Shown here: one piece after another, positions 27,569 through 48,791 of the stretch
Layout: every line of letters begins with the position of its first letter
Numbering within the stretch: position 1 is the stretch's first letter
Source of the DNA: a virus
Length of the DNA: 48,791 nt
Virus record (IMG/VR): IMGVR_UViG_3300037245_003379
Span: 1 to 48,791 of that record
Direction: 5' to 3' (one strand)
Program-made: the position numbers and the translations under genes
Notes under the pieces: model-generated
Databases searched by the model: none
The model's input: only the letters and a program-made list of their open reading frames with translations
What the model was told of the DNA's origin: nothing

Positions 27569-27585
27569 TCTTTTTTTGGTTTTTT

Positions 27586-27658
27586 TAGCAGGGGCGGGAC
27601 TTGAACCCGCGACCTCGTGGTTATGAGCCACACGAACTACCGACTGTTCCACCCTACG
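27586..27658 (-). tRNA. tRNA-Met(CAT), initiator-like
   Basis: The minus strand folds as a cloverleaf: acceptor CGTAGGG/CCCTGCT, D-stem GAAC/GTTC with an 8-nt loop, anticodon stem TGTGG/CCACG with loop CTCATAA (27627-27621), variable AGGTC, T-stem GCGGG/CCCGC with loop TTCAAGT, discriminator A. Features of bacterial initiators are the unpaired 1-72 position (C-U here, C-A in the usual initiator), A11-U24 and the CTCATAA loop. Only two of the three G-C pairs at 29-31/39-41 are present (29-41 is U-A). CCA is not encoded. An elongator Met or a lysidine-type Ile tRNA is less likely. Confidence 0.85.
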
Positions 27659-27663
27659 ATTTA

Positions 27664-30711: not shown

Positions 30712-31119
30712 TTAAAATGGTATATCATCTTCATAATTTTTACTGTCTGTATAATTAGATGATTCTTGCTGCTGTTGGCCTGTCATTTTTTTATGTAATT
30801 TAATTTCTGATACAACAAGTTTATGCTTAGATCTTTTATTATTATCATGATCTGCCCATTGATCAAAATCTAACTGAGAATCAATTGATACTGGAGTTCC
30901 TTTCAATAAATATTGAATCAATACTTCGCCTAATTTTCCCCATAGGATGCATTCTATAAAACATGATTTTGCTTCCCATGTTCCATTTTTATTTTGCCTC
31001 CTGGTGAACGCAAGGCTGAAATTACAAACAGCCATCCCGCCTGAAGTATATTTTAATTCTGCATCTCGTGATAATCTGCCTGTTATTATTACTCTGTTTA
31101 TGTCGGTGTTAATTCCCAT
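30712..31119 (-). CDS. ssb: single-stranded DNA-binding protein
   Basis: I start at ATG 31119 (MGINTDINRVIITGRLS), which overlaps the helicase stop as TAATG; the frame extends 7 codons upstream but without a better site. The 135-aa product has the OB fold (residues 5-105: AVCNFSLAF, WEAKSCFIECILWG, GTPVSIDSQLDF) and the acidic tip DDIPF that recruits partner proteins. It acts in replication and RecT-type recombination. Confidence 0.93.
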   Translation of the reverse strand: MGINTDINRVIITGRLSRDAELKYTSGGMAVCNFSLAFTRRQNKNGTWEAKSCFIECILWGKLGEVLIQYLLKGTPVSIDSQLDFDQWADHDNNKRSKHKLVVSEIKLHKKMTGQQQQESSNYTDSKNYEDDIPF

Positions 31120-32609
31120 TATGAATAATATTTCCTCCAAACCAAATCAGTCCATTTGCGATCTTTGCCTATCATTCGGGCAAGTTCCCCGAACCGATCA
31201 TAACTTGTTAATTGACCATTTTTTATTCTATTATAAATTGCTTGTTCTTGATCTGATAATTCATATTCTTCAATTTCTACTCTATCGGTATAACCTGAGT
31301 AAGCAGGCGGCGGTAATATTTCCATTGGCGCGGGAACTTCCCGGATTTCTTCAATATTATCATTATCTCTATTTTTTAAATTTTCACCACAATACGGGCA
31401 TTCTGCAGGCCGACCGGCAAGATAACAATTACAGCCTGGACAAACTGTCATTTTCATTTCTGGTTCATCACCTTTCTTTTTCAAGCCGTCCAGCTCCCAC
31501 CATCTATAAGTTAATGGATGATGATGAATAAGAGAATTCCCGCATTGATCAAGAATTAAATTATATTTTTTCCCTGGGTATTTTCTGGCCGGTCTGCCGT
31601 TCTGCTGCATCTCGATAATGATTGAGTTAGTTCTACGCCGCTTAATACATCCTGCGACAACTGGCACGTCCACTCCTTCACTAAGGATTTCATAACTGCA
31701 CAAGAAATTATACTTTCCGTTACCAAGTCCTTCAATAAAATCCTTACGTTCTTCAGGGTCCATTTTGTCATATACTGCTCCGCCTTTCCAGCCTTCAGCC
31801 TGTAATCTGGAAGTAACATTTATACAATCTTCGACTGATGCGCCGAAAATTATTGCAGGTGCGCCGTTAAAATATTTATTATAAAGTTTTACGCAATCCT
31901 CAACTACAATTTTTTCAGAAAATATTTCTGTTTCTGTTTTTGTTTCAAAATCTCCTTGTTTCTTTTTACTTTTTGCACCTTGAAGTTTAAGAGTAAGCGG
32001 TGAAAAAATAACCAGGGGAGGTGTTAAATAGATTTCGCCGCCGGTATATTCAGGACTGAGTAAATCAGCATATTGCGGACCGTTAATCAATGCAGTATAG
32101 CCAACTTGCTTTAATCCAATATTATCAGTTCTCTGCGGTGTTGCTGTTAAACCTAAAATCATCATATCCGGATTTGCTTTTTTTAATAATTCTGTTACTT
32201 GTATCCATTGATTAGCTCCGCCGTGGTGACATTCATCTATTATTGCATAATCAAATTTAACGCCGTTTTTTAATAGAAAATCAAGCCTACCGCCTCGGGA
32301 AAGAGTCTGAATCATTGCAACAAAAACATTTGAATCAATCATGTATATATTACCCTGCATGATTCCAGGTTCATATCCATAGGTAACGAGTTTTTTTAAA
32401 GTCTGTGTCATTATTTCTTTTTTATGAACCAGCCACAAGCCGCGCTTTCCTTTATCCATAAAATCAGCTGTTATATCTGCGCCGATTATTGTTTTGCCGC
32501 TTCCGGTTGCTCCGGTCCAAATGAATTGTCTATGGCCCATTTCGTAGGCTTTCCATATCGAATCATTCGCCTGCTGCTGGTATTTCCTGGGATGAAAAGG
32601 TCGATTCAT
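31119..32609 (-). CDS. SF2 DEAD/DEAH-type helicase with C-terminal zinc ribbon
   Basis: The 496-aa protein has a Q-like start (FHPRKYQQQA), Walker A GATGSGKT (33-40), DECH (125-128), motif III GLTATPQR (153-160) and motif VI QQNGRPAR (335-342). Near residues 390-407 a CPGC/CPYC zinc ribbon follows. It resembles UvrB/RecG-type phage helicases used at origins or in recombination. It lies before SSB with overlapping codons. I infer a role in origin opening or fork processing. Confidence 0.9.
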   Translation of the reverse strand: MNRPFHPRKYQQQANDSIWKAYEMGHRQFIWTGATGSGKTIIGADITADFMDKGKRGLWLVHKKEIMTQTLKKLVTYGYEPGIMQGNIYMIDSNVFVAMIQTLSRGGRLDFLLKNGVKFDYAIIDECHHGGANQWIQVTELLKKANPDMMILGLTATPQRTDNIGLKQVGYTALINGPQYADLLSPEYTGGEIYLTPPLVIFSPLTLKLQGAKSKKKQGDFETKTETEIFSEKIVVEDCVKLYNKYFNGAPAIIFGASVEDCINVTSRLQAEGWKGGAVYDKMDPEERKDFIEGLGNGKYNFLCSYEILSEGVDVPVVAGCIKRRRTNSIIIEMQQNGRPARKYPGKKYNLILDQCGNSLIHHHPLTYRWWELDGLKKKGDEPEMKMTVCPGCNCYLAGRPAECPYCGENLKNRDNDNIEEIREVPAPMEILPPPAYSGYTDRVEIEEYELSDQEQAIYNRIKNGQLTSYDRFGELARMIGKDRKWTDLVWRKYYS

Positions 32610-34776: not shown

Positions 34777-34974
34777 TTAATCAGTCTCTAAGATTTTAGT
34801 TATTTTATCAGTTAAGGCTATAGAAGAAGACATAAAAGCACCGAGCTTTGATTGGTCTTCTATTGACCACATGTAAGGCGGATATTCAGATTCCAGAAGA
34901 TCCTTAACTTCGTTCAAAAAGAAATCATCTATTGCTATAAGTACTTTTTTCTTGAGTTTTTTAGAGATTTTCAT
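34777..34974 (-). CDS. hypothetical protein (65 aa)
   Basis: Basic N-terminus (MKISKKLKKKVLIAIDDF), helical. It overlaps the parB stop by 4 bp (ATGA), so it is translated with the partition operon. Function unknown. Confidence 0.55.
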   Translation of the reverse strand: MKISKKLKKKVLIAIDDFFLNEVKDLLESEYPPYMWSIEDQSKLGAFMSSSIALTDKITKILETD

Positions 34975-35693
34975 TTATTCAATCCTTCCAGTAATTTTTC
35001 AATACAATTCAATATATCTTGAGAATCATAATCCAGTCTTAATAATTTTCGGATTTCGCCTTTTAAGGGTTCAAAAGGATCGGACTTATCCACATTATCC
35101 ACAGACTTATGCACAACTTTATCTTTTGCAGCCTTCGCGGCTTTGACGGTCCCGCCGTTTTTTTTAGTTTCTTTCACAACAAATGTTAAATCTTCATCGT
35201 CAACACCTCTAAGCTGCGACATTGCGGATGTTGAAATTCCTGAAGTATCGGTTTTGACTTTTCCGCGTACAGCACCAGCAGCAAGAGCATCAGAAATCCA
35301 TGATATACGTTTGTTTAATCGCGTTGCAATCTGACTTTGAGTTAATCCGGTTTCGATCATTTTTTTAAGCGCCTGTTCCAGTTCTGCAGGATTTAAATTA
35401 TCACGGTGGATATTCTCTGTAAGCTGTAAAATATACGCCTCACCAGTGCGTATAATGGCCTCTATTTGATTAAAAGGCTTTCCCTGTGTCATTAGATACT
35501 CATGCGCTTTGAAACGCCTGTAGCCCGCTATAAGCTCATAATCCGGGGAAATTATAATTGGTTGCAGCTGGCCGTCCCGTTCGATTGAACCCGCCAGTTC
35601 TTCAATATCAGAATAATCTTTGCGAATATTGTCTTTAAGTATGATTTCTGATAGGTCTATTTTTTTAATTCCTGTTGATTTTAGTTTAGCCAT
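34971..35693 (-). CDS. parB: ParB partition protein
   Basis: The 240-aa protein has the ParB/Spo0J landmarks: GYRRFKAHEY (57-66, the GERRxxA box, part of the CTPase site), LTENIHRDNLNPAEL (91-105), an HTH (about 114-136, SQSQIATRLN-like) and a C-terminal dimerisation segment (from 203: DPFEPLKGEIRKLLRLDYD). ParB binds centromere sites and, with ParA, distributes the plasmid prophage to daughter cells. Its 3' third contains three DnaA boxes. Order is unusual: two other genes lie between parA and parB. Confidence 0.92.
   Translation of the reverse strand: MAKLKSTGIKKIDLSEIILKDNIRKDYSDIEELAGSIERDGQLQPIIISPDYELIAGYRRFKAHEYLMTQGKPFNQIEAIIRTGEAYILQLTENIHRDNLNPAELEQALKKMIETGLTQSQIATRLNKRISWISDALAAGAVRGKVKTDTSGISTSAMSQLRGVDDEDLTFVVKETKKNGGTVKAAKAAKDKVVHKSVDNVDKSDPFEPLKGEIRKLLRLDYDSQDILNCIEKLLEGLNK
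35086..35115. other. three consensus DnaA boxes (candidate origin)
   Basis: TTATCCACA (35086-35094), TTATCCACA (35095-35103) and TTATGCACA (35107-35115) all fit TTATNCACA, in the same orientation, within 30 bp inside parB. They encode HKSVDNVDKSD, a linker region of the protein. Such a cluster strongly suggests DnaA-dependent initiation at this place. Confidence 0.75.
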
Positions 35694-36069: not shown

Positions 36070-36749
36070 TTTAATATTCTCTTAATCCATTTATGGAATC
36101 TAATTTTTCTCAAAAATCTCTGATGCTTTTTGTAATCTCTGCGTGACATGAAAGATTTGAAAAGCGCTTCTATCCCTGTTTTTTTTGCATCGGCTAATCC
36201 TTCAAATGTTTGATAATATCTAAGCTGCTTTAATGTATTTTCTGCTAAAATACAGGTTGCTCCAACAGACGAATGTTTCATTATTGTGATATATTCAGAT
36301 TCAGGATTTTCTTTAGAGCTTATGATATCCATCATATAAGGTGTTAATGATTTAGTGGTATTTTCAATATCTTTCAAAATTTCTTCTGGTGATGATCGGG
36401 CCCATAGTTTATCAGGCTGAACATCTGCGCTATCTTCTGACTTTACAGTCAATGCATTTTCGTTAATAATTGCTGGTATGGCTCTGTAAGCTTCAATTTC
36501 AGTGATTCCTGTTTCAAAATCATATTCTAATTCACAAATTAAAAGATTCATTGTTATAAACTTTGAAATTTCAATTACGAATGGTTTTATTTCGCCTCTT
36601 TTTTTAATCAAATATTGCCTTAATTTTTTATTATCGGAAAAGGCAAATCTTGATTTACCATGATAATCATCATTAAATAAATCATCGTAATCTTCCATAG
36701 TTTTTAATTTTACACCGTTTATTTTATAATTAAATTTACCGGCTATCAT
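36060..36749 (-). CDS. hypothetical protein after parA (229 aa)
   Basis: A mixed protein, acidic at first and strongly basic at the C-terminus (KKHQRFLRKIRFHKWIKRILKW), starting by 4-bp overlap with the parA stop. The basic end could bind DNA. It might be a replication initiator or a partition accessory; neither the winged-helix pattern of RepA nor other motif is clear. Confidence 0.5.
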   Translation of the reverse strand: MIAGKFNYKINGVKLKTMEDYDDLFNDDYHGKSRFAFSDNKKLRQYLIKKRGEIKPFVIEISKFITMNLLICELEYDFETGITEIEAYRAIPAIINENALTVKSEDSADVQPDKLWARSSPEEILKDIENTTKSLTPYMMDIISSKENPESEYITIMKHSSVGATCILAENTLKQLRYYQTFEGLADAKKTGIEALFKSFMSRRDYKKHQRFLRKIRFHKWIKRILKWN

Positions 36750-37438
36750 TCTATAACCTCCCGCACAAAACTATCAATAATCTGTTTTGCTCGGCCCTGC
36801 AGTTTGTATCCCGAAATGTTAGCGCACAGATTTCTTAATGATTTCATATCTGAAACTGGTTGACAGAAATAGAGATCTTCAAATTCATTAGAGAATTTTG
36901 ATTCTATATCTTGAAGATTCTTTTTGTTGTTAAATCCATTTAGAATTACTGAAACATCGACTTCAACTCCCATCATCTCCATTTCTTCAATAACAAGGCT
37001 GGTTGCTTCAAAATCTATTAAAGAAGGCATTGCGGGAATAATTACTTTATCAGCTGCGCAAATAGCGTTCCTGGTTAATGCGTTCATTGTGCCTGGGGGA
37101 TCTATGAAGATATAATCAAAGCCTTTGAGATCCATTTTTTTTAATGCGACTTTTAATACTCGATCAGACAGATTTGACATACGGGAAATCCGGAGATCGG
37201 AGGGAATCAAAAATATATTATCGTCTGCGCAATAAGAGAAAACACTATCTCCATTCAAAAGATCTATGGAATTTCCGGCATATCCAGATAATCCAAAAAT
37301 CCGGGTCATGCTTAGATTGCTGTCGAGATCTATTACAAGGATCTTTTTTCCCTGTTTTGCGAGAGTCTTGATTGCTGCTGCTGCGAGTGTTGTTTTTCCG
37401 GTTCCGCCTTTCCAGCTACTGAGTGTTAGTATTTTCAT
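36746..37438 (-). CDS. parA: ParA partition ATPase
   Basis: The 230-aa protein has the deviant Walker A KGGTGKTT (10-17), the A' motif VIDLDSN (35-41), and Walker B IFIDPPG (110-116), which define ParA/Soj ATPases. It is short and has no N-terminal HTH, so it is type Ib-like and does not itself repress the operon by the usual HTH. It drives plasmid segregation on the nucleoid with ParB. It is followed by two unknown genes and parB with overlapping codons. Confidence 0.93.
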   Translation of the reverse strand: MKILTLSSWKGGTGKTTLAAAAIKTLAKQGKKILVIDLDSNLSMTRIFGLSGYAGNSIDLLNGDSVFSYCADDNIFLIPSDLRISRMSNLSDRVLKVALKKMDLKGFDYIFIDPPGTMNALTRNAICAADKVIIPAMPSLIDFEATSLVIEEMEMMGVEVDVSVILNGFNNKKNLQDIESKFSNEFEDLYFCQPVSDMKSLRNLCANISGYKLQGRAKQIIDSFVREVIE

Positions 37439-39079: not shown

Positions 39080-39153
39080 TTTAAACCCCTTTGTTGTTCT
39101 TAATCTTGATTAGAGTATATCAAAACCATTTACAACTGTCAACAGTTAATTAT
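39076..39153 (-). promoter_or_regulatory. operator-promoter repeat, minus-strand copy
   Basis: TTGACA (39142-39137), 17-bp spacer, TATACT (39119-39114); palindrome aactgtcaacagtt (39134-39147) over the -35 box. The block is the near-exact reverse complement of 26266-26342 and overlaps the end of the primase gene. Confidence 0.88.
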
Positions 39154-41899
39154 CAAAAACAGGTAAATTTTCGTCTTTTTCTTCATTTTCATCATATAAA
39201 TACATTTTATTGAATTCTTTCCAGTTAAGAAGAACAGATCTCTCAGATTTACCGGCCATTTTTACAGGATATGATTTATCAATGACAAATCTATTCCGTT
39301 GAATGACTTCTTTATATTCCGTAAATGGTGTATTTTCCAGAAATCTTGATATATCCGGGGAATTGTGCGCTATTGCTATGACTTCAGTTTTATCTTTCAT
39401 TGTAAATCGTTTTAAGCCATATCGTTGTAAATTTTTAGAATATTGTAAAACTCCCAATTCTACCATGCCGTCATATTGTGTCAACATTTCAGCTATTGTT
39501 TTTTCCGTTGCTGTATCGATTCTTATTCTTTCCTGGAGGATTCTTTCAATAATTCTGTCTTCATCGTCTACCGATTCTTTACCAGTTAATTCTGATATGG
39601 CTCTTCCAAAAAAATCAAATATTTTGGCTTCTACTTCACCGCCTTTTTCATCCATAAAATCATTATCTGATACAAGGTTCCAGGTTCCTACTAAAAACGG
39701 GGAATAAGTATCTGCAACCCGGTCGTTTAATCCAAGCTTTAATATTTTTGATTTACATATATCTATTTCTTTTAATATTTTTGGCAGCATATTAAAAGTG
39801 CGCATTCTTAACCCGGTAAAATCTTTAGGGGATATACAGTTTCCTACTGATTCACGCATTCTGCAAACATGGATTCTGGATCGGTCTGCATTATTATCCA
39901 GTCTGACATTTATTGAACCGAAGCAAAACATCGAATTAATATTAAAAACTATAGGATCATGAGTTGCAGATCCTTTACCAACAATTTTTCCCCTTTCATA
40001 AGAAGAACGCATAAGATTTATTACTTTAACAATATTCATTTGTTCAATTTTATTTTTAGCTTCAAATTCATCAAGAATTATAGGGACTGAATCACGTTTC
40101 ATTGATTGCCTGATAAAAGCTTCTGAAGATAAACCTTCAGAAAAAAAAGCATAACTGCCATCCCCTACGGATGGGGCAATAAGACTTTCAATTAAAAATG
40201 ATTTTCCAATTCCAGTTTGAGCTGTTATCCATATTGACGGCCTACGCCAAAGAATTGAAGAAAATGGAGACATAATCATAAATCCAGCTACAGCAATTTT
40301 ATCCATTTTTTTCTCAAAAGAAAAAGTATTAATTTGTTCCCATAAATTACGACCTTCTTCAGCATCCCAAATTTTATTTGATAATTTAAAATGGCGTTTA
40401 GATTTTATATAAAAATTATTACCGTTCCATTCGTCATAATCAATAGTGTTGCCTTTGCATAATTTTATATTCTTACCAGTGTTAAAAATAATTTTATTAT
40501 TATCTACATAAGCGCCTACGCCTTTTATTTTCTTTTCATCAAAGATCCCTGCCTGGTATGATTTTTCTCGAAACCAGGCAAGAGCTTTTTTTCTATCAAA
40601 AATGGTTTTTTCTTCACCTTCTTTTGTAATTACTTCCATATTGAATTTAATAAACCACCAATCCTCAGTTGCAAGTTCAAATAACCAATTTTTTATTGAT
40701 TGTTCGCCTCTTGAAATTTTCAATGCTACTTGCTGAAATCCAGGTAAAATATAATAAGCTTTTTCGTCATACCCGAGAAATTGAAACGGCATATCATTTG
40801 TTTTTTTTGGCTCTTTGGATACAACTTCTGTATCCGGGGGTATTATTTCAACGGCATTATTGATAATTTCGCGTAATTCTTCGATTTTTATCGCCTGCAA
40901 AAAATCATCCGCGTCCATGGTCTCCAACAGCCTTGCGGCGTGTATTTGGCCTATGTAACCAGCTTCATATAATTTTTGAATAGGAGTCTGCGGTTGTTGT
41001 TTTATTTCATTTTTTTTATCAATTTTGTATTCATCAAGGCCAGAAAAATAACGGCCAGAATTATCACCATCGTAAGCGAAAATAATGTTGTCACATTTTA
41101 ATAATTTATTAACATTATATTTTGTGATTCCATTGGTCCCGCCTGTTGAATATACATTTTTAAAACCAACCGACAACATTGAAAGAGCTGATAATTCTGC
41201 TTCTACTAAAATAGCTGTTCCGGTTATGTTTTCATTTTTCGGGCATGGGAATGTTTTTGCAGAAATTGAATTTCTTTTTTCACATTTTCCATTTTTATAG
41301 AATAATAACTTATAACCGAATCCAAGGCGAACAACTACGCCAGAATAAAACCAGGAAGAAAAATTTTTATCTTCAATAGGGATGGGAATGCCGGCCAATT
41401 CTAATCTTTCAAGCGGGATTTTTTTCTGGGCTTCATCTATCCCTGGCCAATATCCGAATTTATCTCTCATTTCAAAGGCAATTTCATCAATGTAGCCGCG
41501 TTGTTTTAAAAAAGATTTAACGCCTTTCTCGCGGCCCGGATGATTACGTACAAAACTTTCAAATTCTTCTATAGCTGCAGGATCTGTTTTGATTTCCTTT
41601 TTTTTAACAGGACCAGCAGGAAAGTTTTCTGAAGAAACACCAGTCAGAGTTTTTTCAACTTCTCTAAATTGATCTTTTATATCAGCTATACTGCACACTA
41701 AACCGGCTGCATCATATATATCTCCGTGAACGCCGCAGGATTGGCATTTAAAACCATCGTCATGTAATATCATGGCCGGAGTATTTGAATTGCTGTGTTC
41801 CGGGGAAATACAGAACATGGGGCTTTGTGAAACATTGAATCCTTTCTGTGATAGATAATGTTTCAATTGTGATTTATATTTTGAGTAATCCTGTTTCAA
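39146..41899 (-). CDS. primase-helicase
   Basis: The 917-aa protein combines a CHC2-type zinc finger (C30, H35, C52, C55), a Toprim domain (E233 in VEAELSAL; D277/D279 in AYDGDNSG) and an ATPase domain with Walker A AQTGIGKS (560-567) and Walker B IILDEFE (607-613), like DUF927 or virulence-E-type helicases. It would open DNA and make primers for phage/plasmid replication. A two-gene operon with the HTH protein: its ATG overlaps the preceding stop. No DNA polymerase is seen, so host polymerase is used. Confidence 0.88.
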   Translation of the reverse strand: MKQDYSKYKSQLKHYLSQKGFNVSQSPMFCISPEHSNSNTPAMILHDDGFKCQSCGVHGDIYDAAGLVCSIADIKDQFREVEKTLTGVSSENFPAGPVKKKEIKTDPAAIEEFESFVRNHPGREKGVKSFLKQRGYIDEIAFEMRDKFGYWPGIDEAQKKIPLERLELAGIPIPIEDKNFSSWFYSGVVVRLGFGYKLLFYKNGKCEKRNSISAKTFPCPKNENITGTAILVEAELSALSMLSVGFKNVYSTGGTNGITKYNVNKLLKCDNIIFAYDGDNSGRYFSGLDEYKIDKKNEIKQQPQTPIQKLYEAGYIGQIHAARLLETMDADDFLQAIKIEELREIINNAVEIIPPDTEVVSKEPKKTNDMPFQFLGYDEKAYYILPGFQQVALKISRGEQSIKNWLFELATEDWWFIKFNMEVITKEGEEKTIFDRKKALAWFREKSYQAGIFDEKKIKGVGAYVDNNKIIFNTGKNIKLCKGNTIDYDEWNGNNFYIKSKRHFKLSNKIWDAEEGRNLWEQINTFSFEKKMDKIAVAGFMIMSPFSSILWRRPSIWITAQTGIGKSFLIESLIAPSVGDGSYAFFSEGLSSEAFIRQSMKRDSVPIILDEFEAKNKIEQMNIVKVINLMRSSYERGKIVGKGSATHDPIVFNINSMFCFGSINVRLDNNADRSRIHVCRMRESVGNCISPKDFTGLRMRTFNMLPKILKEIDICKSKILKLGLNDRVADTYSPFLVGTWNLVSDNDFMDEKGGEVEAKIFDFFGRAISELTGKESVDDEDRIIERILQERIRIDTATEKTIAEMLTQYDGMVELGVLQYSKNLQRYGLKRFTMKDKTEVIAIAHNSPDISRFLENTPFTEYKEVIQRNRFVIDKSYPVKMAGKSERSVLLNWKEFNKMYLYDENEEKDENLPVFDN

Positions 41900-42202: not shown

Positions 42203-42661
42203 ATGGAATATACAATACGATTTTGTCATTTGAAAGAACCGGTTAGTCATAAAGTTGGCGATAAAGTAGTCAGAGGTGACTTTATAGGCATGATGGGCAA
42301 CTCCGGGGCTTCAAAGAGTGCTCATTTACATATTGACTGTGTAAGAGGGCGTGTTCAACATATGTATCATCTTAAAGATATGAATTTTGAAACTTTATAC
42401 CCGGATATTCAACAGTTAAATCATTTTATAGATGATGAACTTTTTGATTATAAAATTTTGATAACTTCGTATTTTTTCGATCCTGGATATAAACGTCTTT
42501 TCGGGAAAGATCATCCTGCGTATGATGTGGTTCCAGAAAACAGGAAACGCACAAAAAAGAATTATAAAATCTTTTGGAACCGATCAAAAACCGGAACAGT
42601 ATTATTCAAAGGGTACGATTCCGGTTATGGTAATTTTATATATATCGGCTTTAATGCTTAA
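42203..42661 (+). CDS. M23/LytM peptidase with permuted halves, endolysin candidate
   Basis: The zinc-site motifs are present in reversed order. Residues 7-45 hold the second half of an M23 domain (FCHLKE, KVGDKVVRGDFIGMMGNSG, HLHID with H41/H43), while residues 84-150 hold the first half (ITSYFFDPGYKRLFGKDHPAYD, H104 and D108; then GTVLFKGYDSGYGN). Standard M23 enzymes have HxxxD first and HxH last. The total 152 aa can make one full domain. It has no signal peptide and needs holin to reach peptidoglycan. It is the only lysin-like gene seen. Leaderless ATG 6 nt after TATAAT. Confidence 0.7.
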   Translation: MEYTIRFCHLKEPVSHKVGDKVVRGDFIGMMGNSGASKSAHLHIDCVRGRVQHMYHLKDMNFETLYPDIQQLNHFIDDELFDYKILITSYFFDPGYKRLFGKDHPAYDVVPENRKRTKKNYKIFWNRSKTGTVLFKGYDSGYGNFIYIGFNA

Positions 42662-48137: not shown

Positions 48138-48776
48138 ATCAATATCCTTTAATTAAATCATTATTTTATTTAATTATATAATGATTGAGAGCTTTGTCAA
48201 GTAAATAATTAAATCATTATAATATTAAATATTTTAATTAAATAATATCCCCCTACAGTACGTAAAACACTAATAATTTTAATTAAATAATTATTGAGTA
48301 ATATAATAAGGATTATGTATTTAATTAAATTTCTTAATGATTTAATGATTAGATCGTATCTGTTGTATCCCTATAGTATTATAAATTTATATATTTAAAT
48401 ATATATATTTATTTATAGAGTAAGGAATTATATAATAATACAATCATCATAGATACAGTGATACAATAGATACGATTATATATATACACACAAGATAAGA
48501 GCTATATTATACTTATGTTCTATAATATATATATCATTATACTACTCTGCTATATTCCGTACTTTCTGTAACCAGTATCAAATAACAGGTTAATTCATTA
48601 CTATATATATACTTAGTTGATACAGGATTTTCTTGTATATTTATATATTTATACTTAATTACTTAATAATCTTAATGATTTAATGATAACATTCATCATT
48701 ATTCTATGTCAGATAGCATATAACGGCACTATATTTATATAAAAAGGTACTGTGCGGCCCCCTACCCCCTTGAGCA
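48138..48776. other. A+T-rich non-coding region with repeated motifs, possible second origin/operator cluster
   Basis: About 640 bp (plus 1-103 across the junction) without a convincing gene. TTAATTAAAT-type elements recur (near 48149, 48207, 48235, 48279, 48322), with aatgatttaat-type copies near 48338 and 48675. Long A+T runs at 48360-48560 would melt easily. A GC-rich patch, gcggccccctaccccc, at 48754-48769 stands out just before the junction and may belong to cos. No DnaA box was found here. Confidence 0.55.
48173..48200 (-). promoter_or_regulatory. early promoter for the 42.6-48.1 kb operon
   Basis: Minus strand: TTGACA (48200-48195), 16-bp spacer, TATAAT (48178-48173), followed by an AAAGGA site before ATG 48137. 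Repeated A+T elements overlap it, as expected for autoregulation by the RHH protein. Confidence 0.7.
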
Positions 48777-48791
48777 ATAATCTACGTGAGG
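48777..48791. repeat. terminal direct repeat, right copy
   Basis: Identical to bases 1-15. See the left copy. Confidence 0.85.

Follow-up and report, generated by a model that had tools for sequence, protein, structure and literature searches.

Introduction

In bacterial oriC regions such as that of B. subtilis, DnaA boxes are combined with a DnaA-trio unwinding system. Replication origins that lie within coding sequence are already established. The origin of pSK41, a RepA_N plasmid, is located centrally in rep, where the DNA codes for an interdomain linker that is dispensable; it consists of Rep boxes for the plasmid's own initiator, and no plasmid DnaA boxes had been found there (PMC5703833). 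In the repABC plasmids, oriV lies inside the initiator gene repC as an A+T-rich stretch without DnaA boxes or iterons, and silent mutations there abolish replication (PMC3155836). DnaA boxes as the embedded signal, and parB as the gene that carries them, would be new. A literature search for phage-plasmid origins combining DnaA boxes and ParB returned no papers from the collection searched.

The DNA analysed here, hereafter the window, comprises an entire IMG/VR virus record of 48,791 nucleotides, in which three DnaA boxes were located inside parB. The locus resembles pSK41 in that replication signals, candidate signals in our case, lie in the linker-coding DNA of a gene for a DNA-binding protein of replication or maintenance. 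It differs in that the window has DnaA boxes in parB, whereas pSK41 has Rep boxes in the initiator gene rep. With the repABC plasmids it shares a (candidate) signal within the coding sequence of an operon with ParA/ParB homologues, but the boxes of the window are without an AT-rich element and lie in parB and not in the initiator gene repC. Because the carrier gene is not an initiator, the window was not classed with pSK41 or repABC. Compared with a B. subtilis-type oriC, the adjacent same-orientation TTATCCACA boxes are alike, whereas the window has neither a trio run nor an AT-rich stretch past the boxes. In addition, the 30-mer TTATCCACATTATCCACAGACTTATGCACA is identical in the Vibrio phages VH7D, ValKK3 and their relatives. 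Their array differs in being intergenic and non-coding, with further boxes, in large T4-like phages whose genes are unrelated to those of the window; homology as the source of the shared 30-mer was rejected, since the surrounding genes are unrelated.

Phage Genome and Likely Host

The structural genes of the window encode terminase, portal, protease, capsid, sheath and tail proteins, and its replication and recombination genes encode RecT-like, YqaJ-type, DEAD-helicase, SSB, ParA, ParB and Toprim primase-like proteins. The genes that bear on the locus are the following:

30712..31140, minus strand: single-strand binding protein (Pfam SSB, 6e-28)
34971..35693, minus strand: parB, 240 aa (Pfam ParB_N at residues 26-83 and HTH_ParB at 99-187; ParB-like PHROGs)
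36746..37438, minus strand: parA, Walker-type ATPase (Pfam AAA_31, 2.8e-23; phrog_164, 1.8e-39), in a leftward block shared with parB
39146..41899, minus strand: Toprim primase-like protein, 917 aa (Pfam Toprim_2; phrog_35358 DNA primase, 6.7e-53)

The boxes fall inside the replication module that includes the Toprim primase-like gene, and the SSB gene with the RecT-like, YqaJ and DEAD-helicase genes forms the boundary of the replication/recombination block. An initiator such as Rep_3 was not recognised among the window proteins scanned, nor was an integrase among the scanned proteins, which covered most, but not all, ORFs. From the partition genes and the lack of a recognised integrase, a plasmid-like prophage or phage lifestyle is probable. 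The closest cellular relatives of ParA were found in metagenome-assembled genomes (MAGs) of Treponema and other spirochaetes, with 39-45% identity, so a spirochaete host is likely.

Several other features of the window were recorded. A 15-bp direct terminal repeat, ATAATCTACGTGAGG, is present at 1-15 and 48777-48791, near the C-rich stretch GGCCCCCTACCCCC and the terminase genes; it may mark a circular contig or a cohesive-end site. Just ahead of terminase, a D12-class adenine methyltransferase gene (535-1320) is flanked by perfect 34-bp inverted repeats (482-515 and 1367-1400), of which the right one lies inside the next ORF, and a mobile or invertible cassette is possible. Furthermore, a tRNA-Met (CAT) gene occupies 27585-27659 on the minus strand.

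Three DnaA Boxes in the ParB Linker

The initial annotation had placed three DnaA boxes, all in one orientation, at 35086-35115, and exact matches were confirmed there:

35086..35094, plus strand: DnaA box 1, TTATCCACA, exact match
35095..35103, plus strand: DnaA box 2, TTATCCACA, exact match, abutting box 1
35107..35115, plus strand: DnaA box 3, TTATGCACA, exact match, 3 bp past box 2

The spacings are thus 0 and 3 bp, and the whole cluster takes up 30 bp of the plus strand. The proposal that such a grouping is very unlikely by chance was borne out. Neither a pair within 12 bp nor a triple appeared in simulations of the window (60 each, Markov orders 1-3), the Poisson expectation of a box triple was 6e-7 per window, and triples in genomes of the likely host order numbered 8 against 0 in the reversed control. 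The count of TTATNCACA matches, also proposed as a check, gave a divided answer: the triple stands out as a cluster of consensus boxes grouped beyond chance, but the overall number in the window was 5 against 2.9 expected from shuffles, which indicates that single boxes are not enriched and that the enrichment is one of clustering only. There were no other TTATNCACA matches within 16 kb of the parB cluster.

The position of the boxes in the linker of ParB, next to parA and within the replication module, agreed with the domain and PHROGs matches. With ParB_N (E=1.5e-7) and an HTH domain (HTH_ParB, E=1.3e-4, 0.1 bit below the cut-off), and with parA close by, the carrier was identified as a ParB partition protein; it is not an initiator or primosome gene, in which an embedded origin might be looked for. 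The DNA of the boxes encodes VVHKSVDNVDK, roughly residues 193-203, just C-terminal of the HTH_ParB match, and alignment with relatives showed the VHKSVDNVDK linker to be unconserved.

Conservation in relatives had been proposed as a check on an origin: the linker and the box cluster were present in 0/45 ParB relatives, which is weak evidence against an origin because the closest of them reaches at most 52% ParB identity. Similarly, no box pair was found anywhere in the related phage contigs (0/10), which may be fragments. Searches of viral contigs with single ParB and primase sequences returned no relatives, and a search with the ParB alignment returned just two already-known contigs. No palindromic parS common to the window and its relatives was found.

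Origin Signals at the Boxes

The 100 bp following the boxes had 59-60% AT, compared with 66.7% in the window overall, so no raised AT was seen beside them, and the best 50-bp AT stretches nearby reached only the window's 95th percentile. A DnaA-trio was not present beside the boxes either (trio run 1). The site therefore has neither the AT-rich unwinding element nor the DnaA-trio of a DnaA-dependent origin. Of the earlier proposal of an origin within parB, the box cluster and its placement stood, while origin function did not gain support from these companions.

GC skew around 35.1 kb had been suggested as a further check. Turning points of the skew lay at 25.1 kb and the contig ends but not at 35.1 kb, and its course followed gene orientation: third-position skew was about 0, and the plus-strand gene at 42203-42661, within a minus-strand block, had positive skew. 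GC skew was accordingly rejected as an origin signal, and since it tracks gene orientation the check was unable to decide the origin.

Box Arrays in the Likely Host Order

The background set from the likely host order comprised 394 genomes of 1.1-4.9 Mb each, and a triple was defined by gaps of 0-6. The eight triples found there were situated by dnaA (3), just before an nrdR-like gene (2) or without a convincing covering ORF (3); at the nrdR-like triples, the ORF caller had run past the probable true start. All the host-order triples whose context was examined were non-coding, unlike that of the window. Furthermore, box pairs occurred at 39 places in 31/149 host-order genomes, compared with 2 control places. 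Such arrays are rarely accidental in the host order.

One genome (G012) had a box pair upstream of dnaA, and another (G014) had box pairs beside a ParA/Rep_3 plasmid locus and beside a second Rep_3 gene. Because pairs adjoin these genes, it is credible that TTATNCACA would serve as the DnaA box in the likely spirochaete host clade. Three spirochaete loci (L244, L245 and L252) had two or three boxes immediately before an nrdR-like gene whose likely true start is MRCPNCGS, which suggests DnaA control of nucleotide reduction in spirochaetes with nrdR-adjacent boxes.

Coding Repeat or Selected Boxes

The boxes can also be described as units of a repeat in the protein-coding DNA:

35084..35119: degenerate 9/12-bp coding tandem repeat (Tandem Repeats Finder, score 42), holding all three boxes

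The units are GTGCATAAGTCT, GTGGATAAT and GTGGATAAGTCC, and their likeness extends past the boxes. As the boxes are also tandem repeat units, the three need not be independent events. The strongest rival explanation, to which we give a considerable chance although one well short of even, is built on this: a unit of 9-12 bp (V-D/H-K/N, sometimes S) would have been duplicated neutrally in a disordered, fast-evolving ParB linker and would spell the DnaA consensus fortuitously, with no role in replication. Copies 1 and 3 agree at 10/12 bases and have in common the rare Lys codon AAG and Ser TC, which argues for the neutral repeat, as do the lack of conservation in relatives and the absent unwinding element. 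In addition, an unrelated 74-aa membrane-like protein (L103:13048-13272) contains VHKPVDNVDK encoded by TTATCCACATTATCCACAGGCTTATGCACA, nearly the window's 30 bases, showing that the peptide can emerge independently.

The two explanations were compared with a synonymous-codon control, in which TTATCCACAx2 and its GTA and GTT versions were searched in 2.9 million viral contigs. The box version was present in 93 contigs, compared with 34 for the GTA version, 40 for the GTT version and 16 for the reversed control. Non-coding matches numbered 55 for the box version against 2 (GTA) and 7 (GTT), which indicates that the box version is clearly selected outside genes. Within genes the picture was more even: distinct in-frame VDNVD coding tandems numbered 17 with GTG, 16 with GTA and 15 with GTT (coding status was assigned by open frames of at least 90 aa, and a few cases may be miscalled). 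VD repeats are thus common, and some of the synonymous versions have third units. Since neutral synonymous coding repeats also acquire third units, the third box was rejected as independent proof of selection.

Nevertheless, the GTG tandems exceeded each of the neutral expectations across phages. The 17 cases compare with 4.0 when the valine usage of each locus sets the expectation (p<5e-5), and with 6.9 when the second unit is modelled as a duplicate of the first (p=8e-5). Codon-pair context was rejected as the source of the excess, because 3.2 cases were expected after that correction. With initiator genes left out, the excess persisted under codon context (9 vs 2.3, p=1e-4) and was weaker under the duplication model (9 vs 4.9, p=0.04). 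The window genome is itself low in GTG, which makes up 8.6% of its Val codons, and the uniform-GTG tandem share expected in it is 1.5%. Given the peptide and the window's codon usage, the chance of three independent boxes is p=6.7e-5; should the units have arisen by copying, the first choice alone counts, at about 0.03-0.06 per box. The host-order background also speaks against a neutral coding repeat: none of the triples matched there was identified as coding, and the reversed control gave 0 in 394 genomes.

Phage Genes Carrying Coding Boxes

Replication-initiation, DnaD-like loader, primase-helicase or primosomal proteins accounted for 6/14 of the scanned GTG carriers. Among the synonymous (GTA/GTT) carriers, such initiation or primosome proteins were 0/16 of those scanned, one carrier being a clamp loader (hypergeometric p about 0.005 for the two proportions). 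In the six initiation-type carriers (L022, L036, L037, L051, L057 and L079), the boxes lay mostly in a low-complexity linker. These results suggest that phages hide DnaA boxes in the protein linkers of initiation genes, and the window would extend such linker-embedded boxes from initiation genes to a partition gene.

Runs of TACTACTA-type trios also occurred at several viral tandem-box loci, and the first of the six carriers, L022, additionally had a trio-like TACTACTA run. At six further loci (L043, L054, L060, L073, L097 and L099), tandem DnaA boxes precede a short patch and then runs of the TACTACTACTA kind; judged by this arrangement, they are bacterial-type oriC modules in viral contigs.

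Role of the Locus and the Remaining Alternatives

The likelihoods given in words here were weighed by judgement in the light of the controls and are not calculated posteriors. That the boxes are a real DnaA-binding cluster, with a replication role and regulation or titration taken together, is somewhat probable on the sequence comparisons; that the cluster aids replication has, taken by itself, a chance only a little under even. In the mechanism that we propose, host DnaA would bind the three boxes in the ParB linker, which is probably disordered as well as unconserved, so that the coding sequence would tolerate boxes there. Bound DnaA, acting with the phage-encoded primase-like protein, would then help the phage genome to begin replicating or help to control its replication. 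A complete origin at the 35.1 kb site is unlikely, and the same holds for the fuller proposal of a phage-plasmid origin in the parB linker, where DnaA loading would couple the start of replication, ParB expression and segregation at one locus.

After the coding repeat, the next alternative is that the true origin lies elsewhere, with the boxes in parB only incidental. One candidate for this is the following:

48138..48791: candidate for an alternative origin or a control region, the longest of the non-coding stretches (21.7% GC)

Its repeated ATGATTTAAT-type motifs in both orientations, its low GC and length, and the GC skew minimum there speak for an origin, as do the divergent gene blocks that would flank the region if the contig closes via the 15-bp end repeat. 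On the other hand, TTATNCACA matches are absent (0), the skew is explained by gene orientation, and the position near the terminase genes is that of a possible packaging or promoter region. Overall, an origin elsewhere is rather unlikely, and this rival overlaps the other readings, because it concerns the origin only; an origin at 48138-48791 would be compatible with a DnaA role at 35.1 kb. Least probable is a non-origin DnaA cluster, as a roadblock or regulator of the leftward par-to-recombination block or as a site of host DnaA titration: the host-order triple before nrdR is in a regulatory and not an origin setting, and the boxes, which lack origin companions, are inside a transcribed gene that short genes closely follow, but promoter excess and terminator signals near the boxes were no higher than the shuffle level, and the comparative excess was in initiation genes rather than regulators.

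If the reading of the boxes as a DnaA-binding cluster that aids replication is true, a phage-plasmid would carry its DnaA control within the protein-coding DNA of its partition gene, tying copy-number control to segregation. Furthermore, consensus boxes that are hidden in linkers, exceed their synonymous codings and are concentrated in phage initiation genes offer a sequence-only route to coding-embedded origins.
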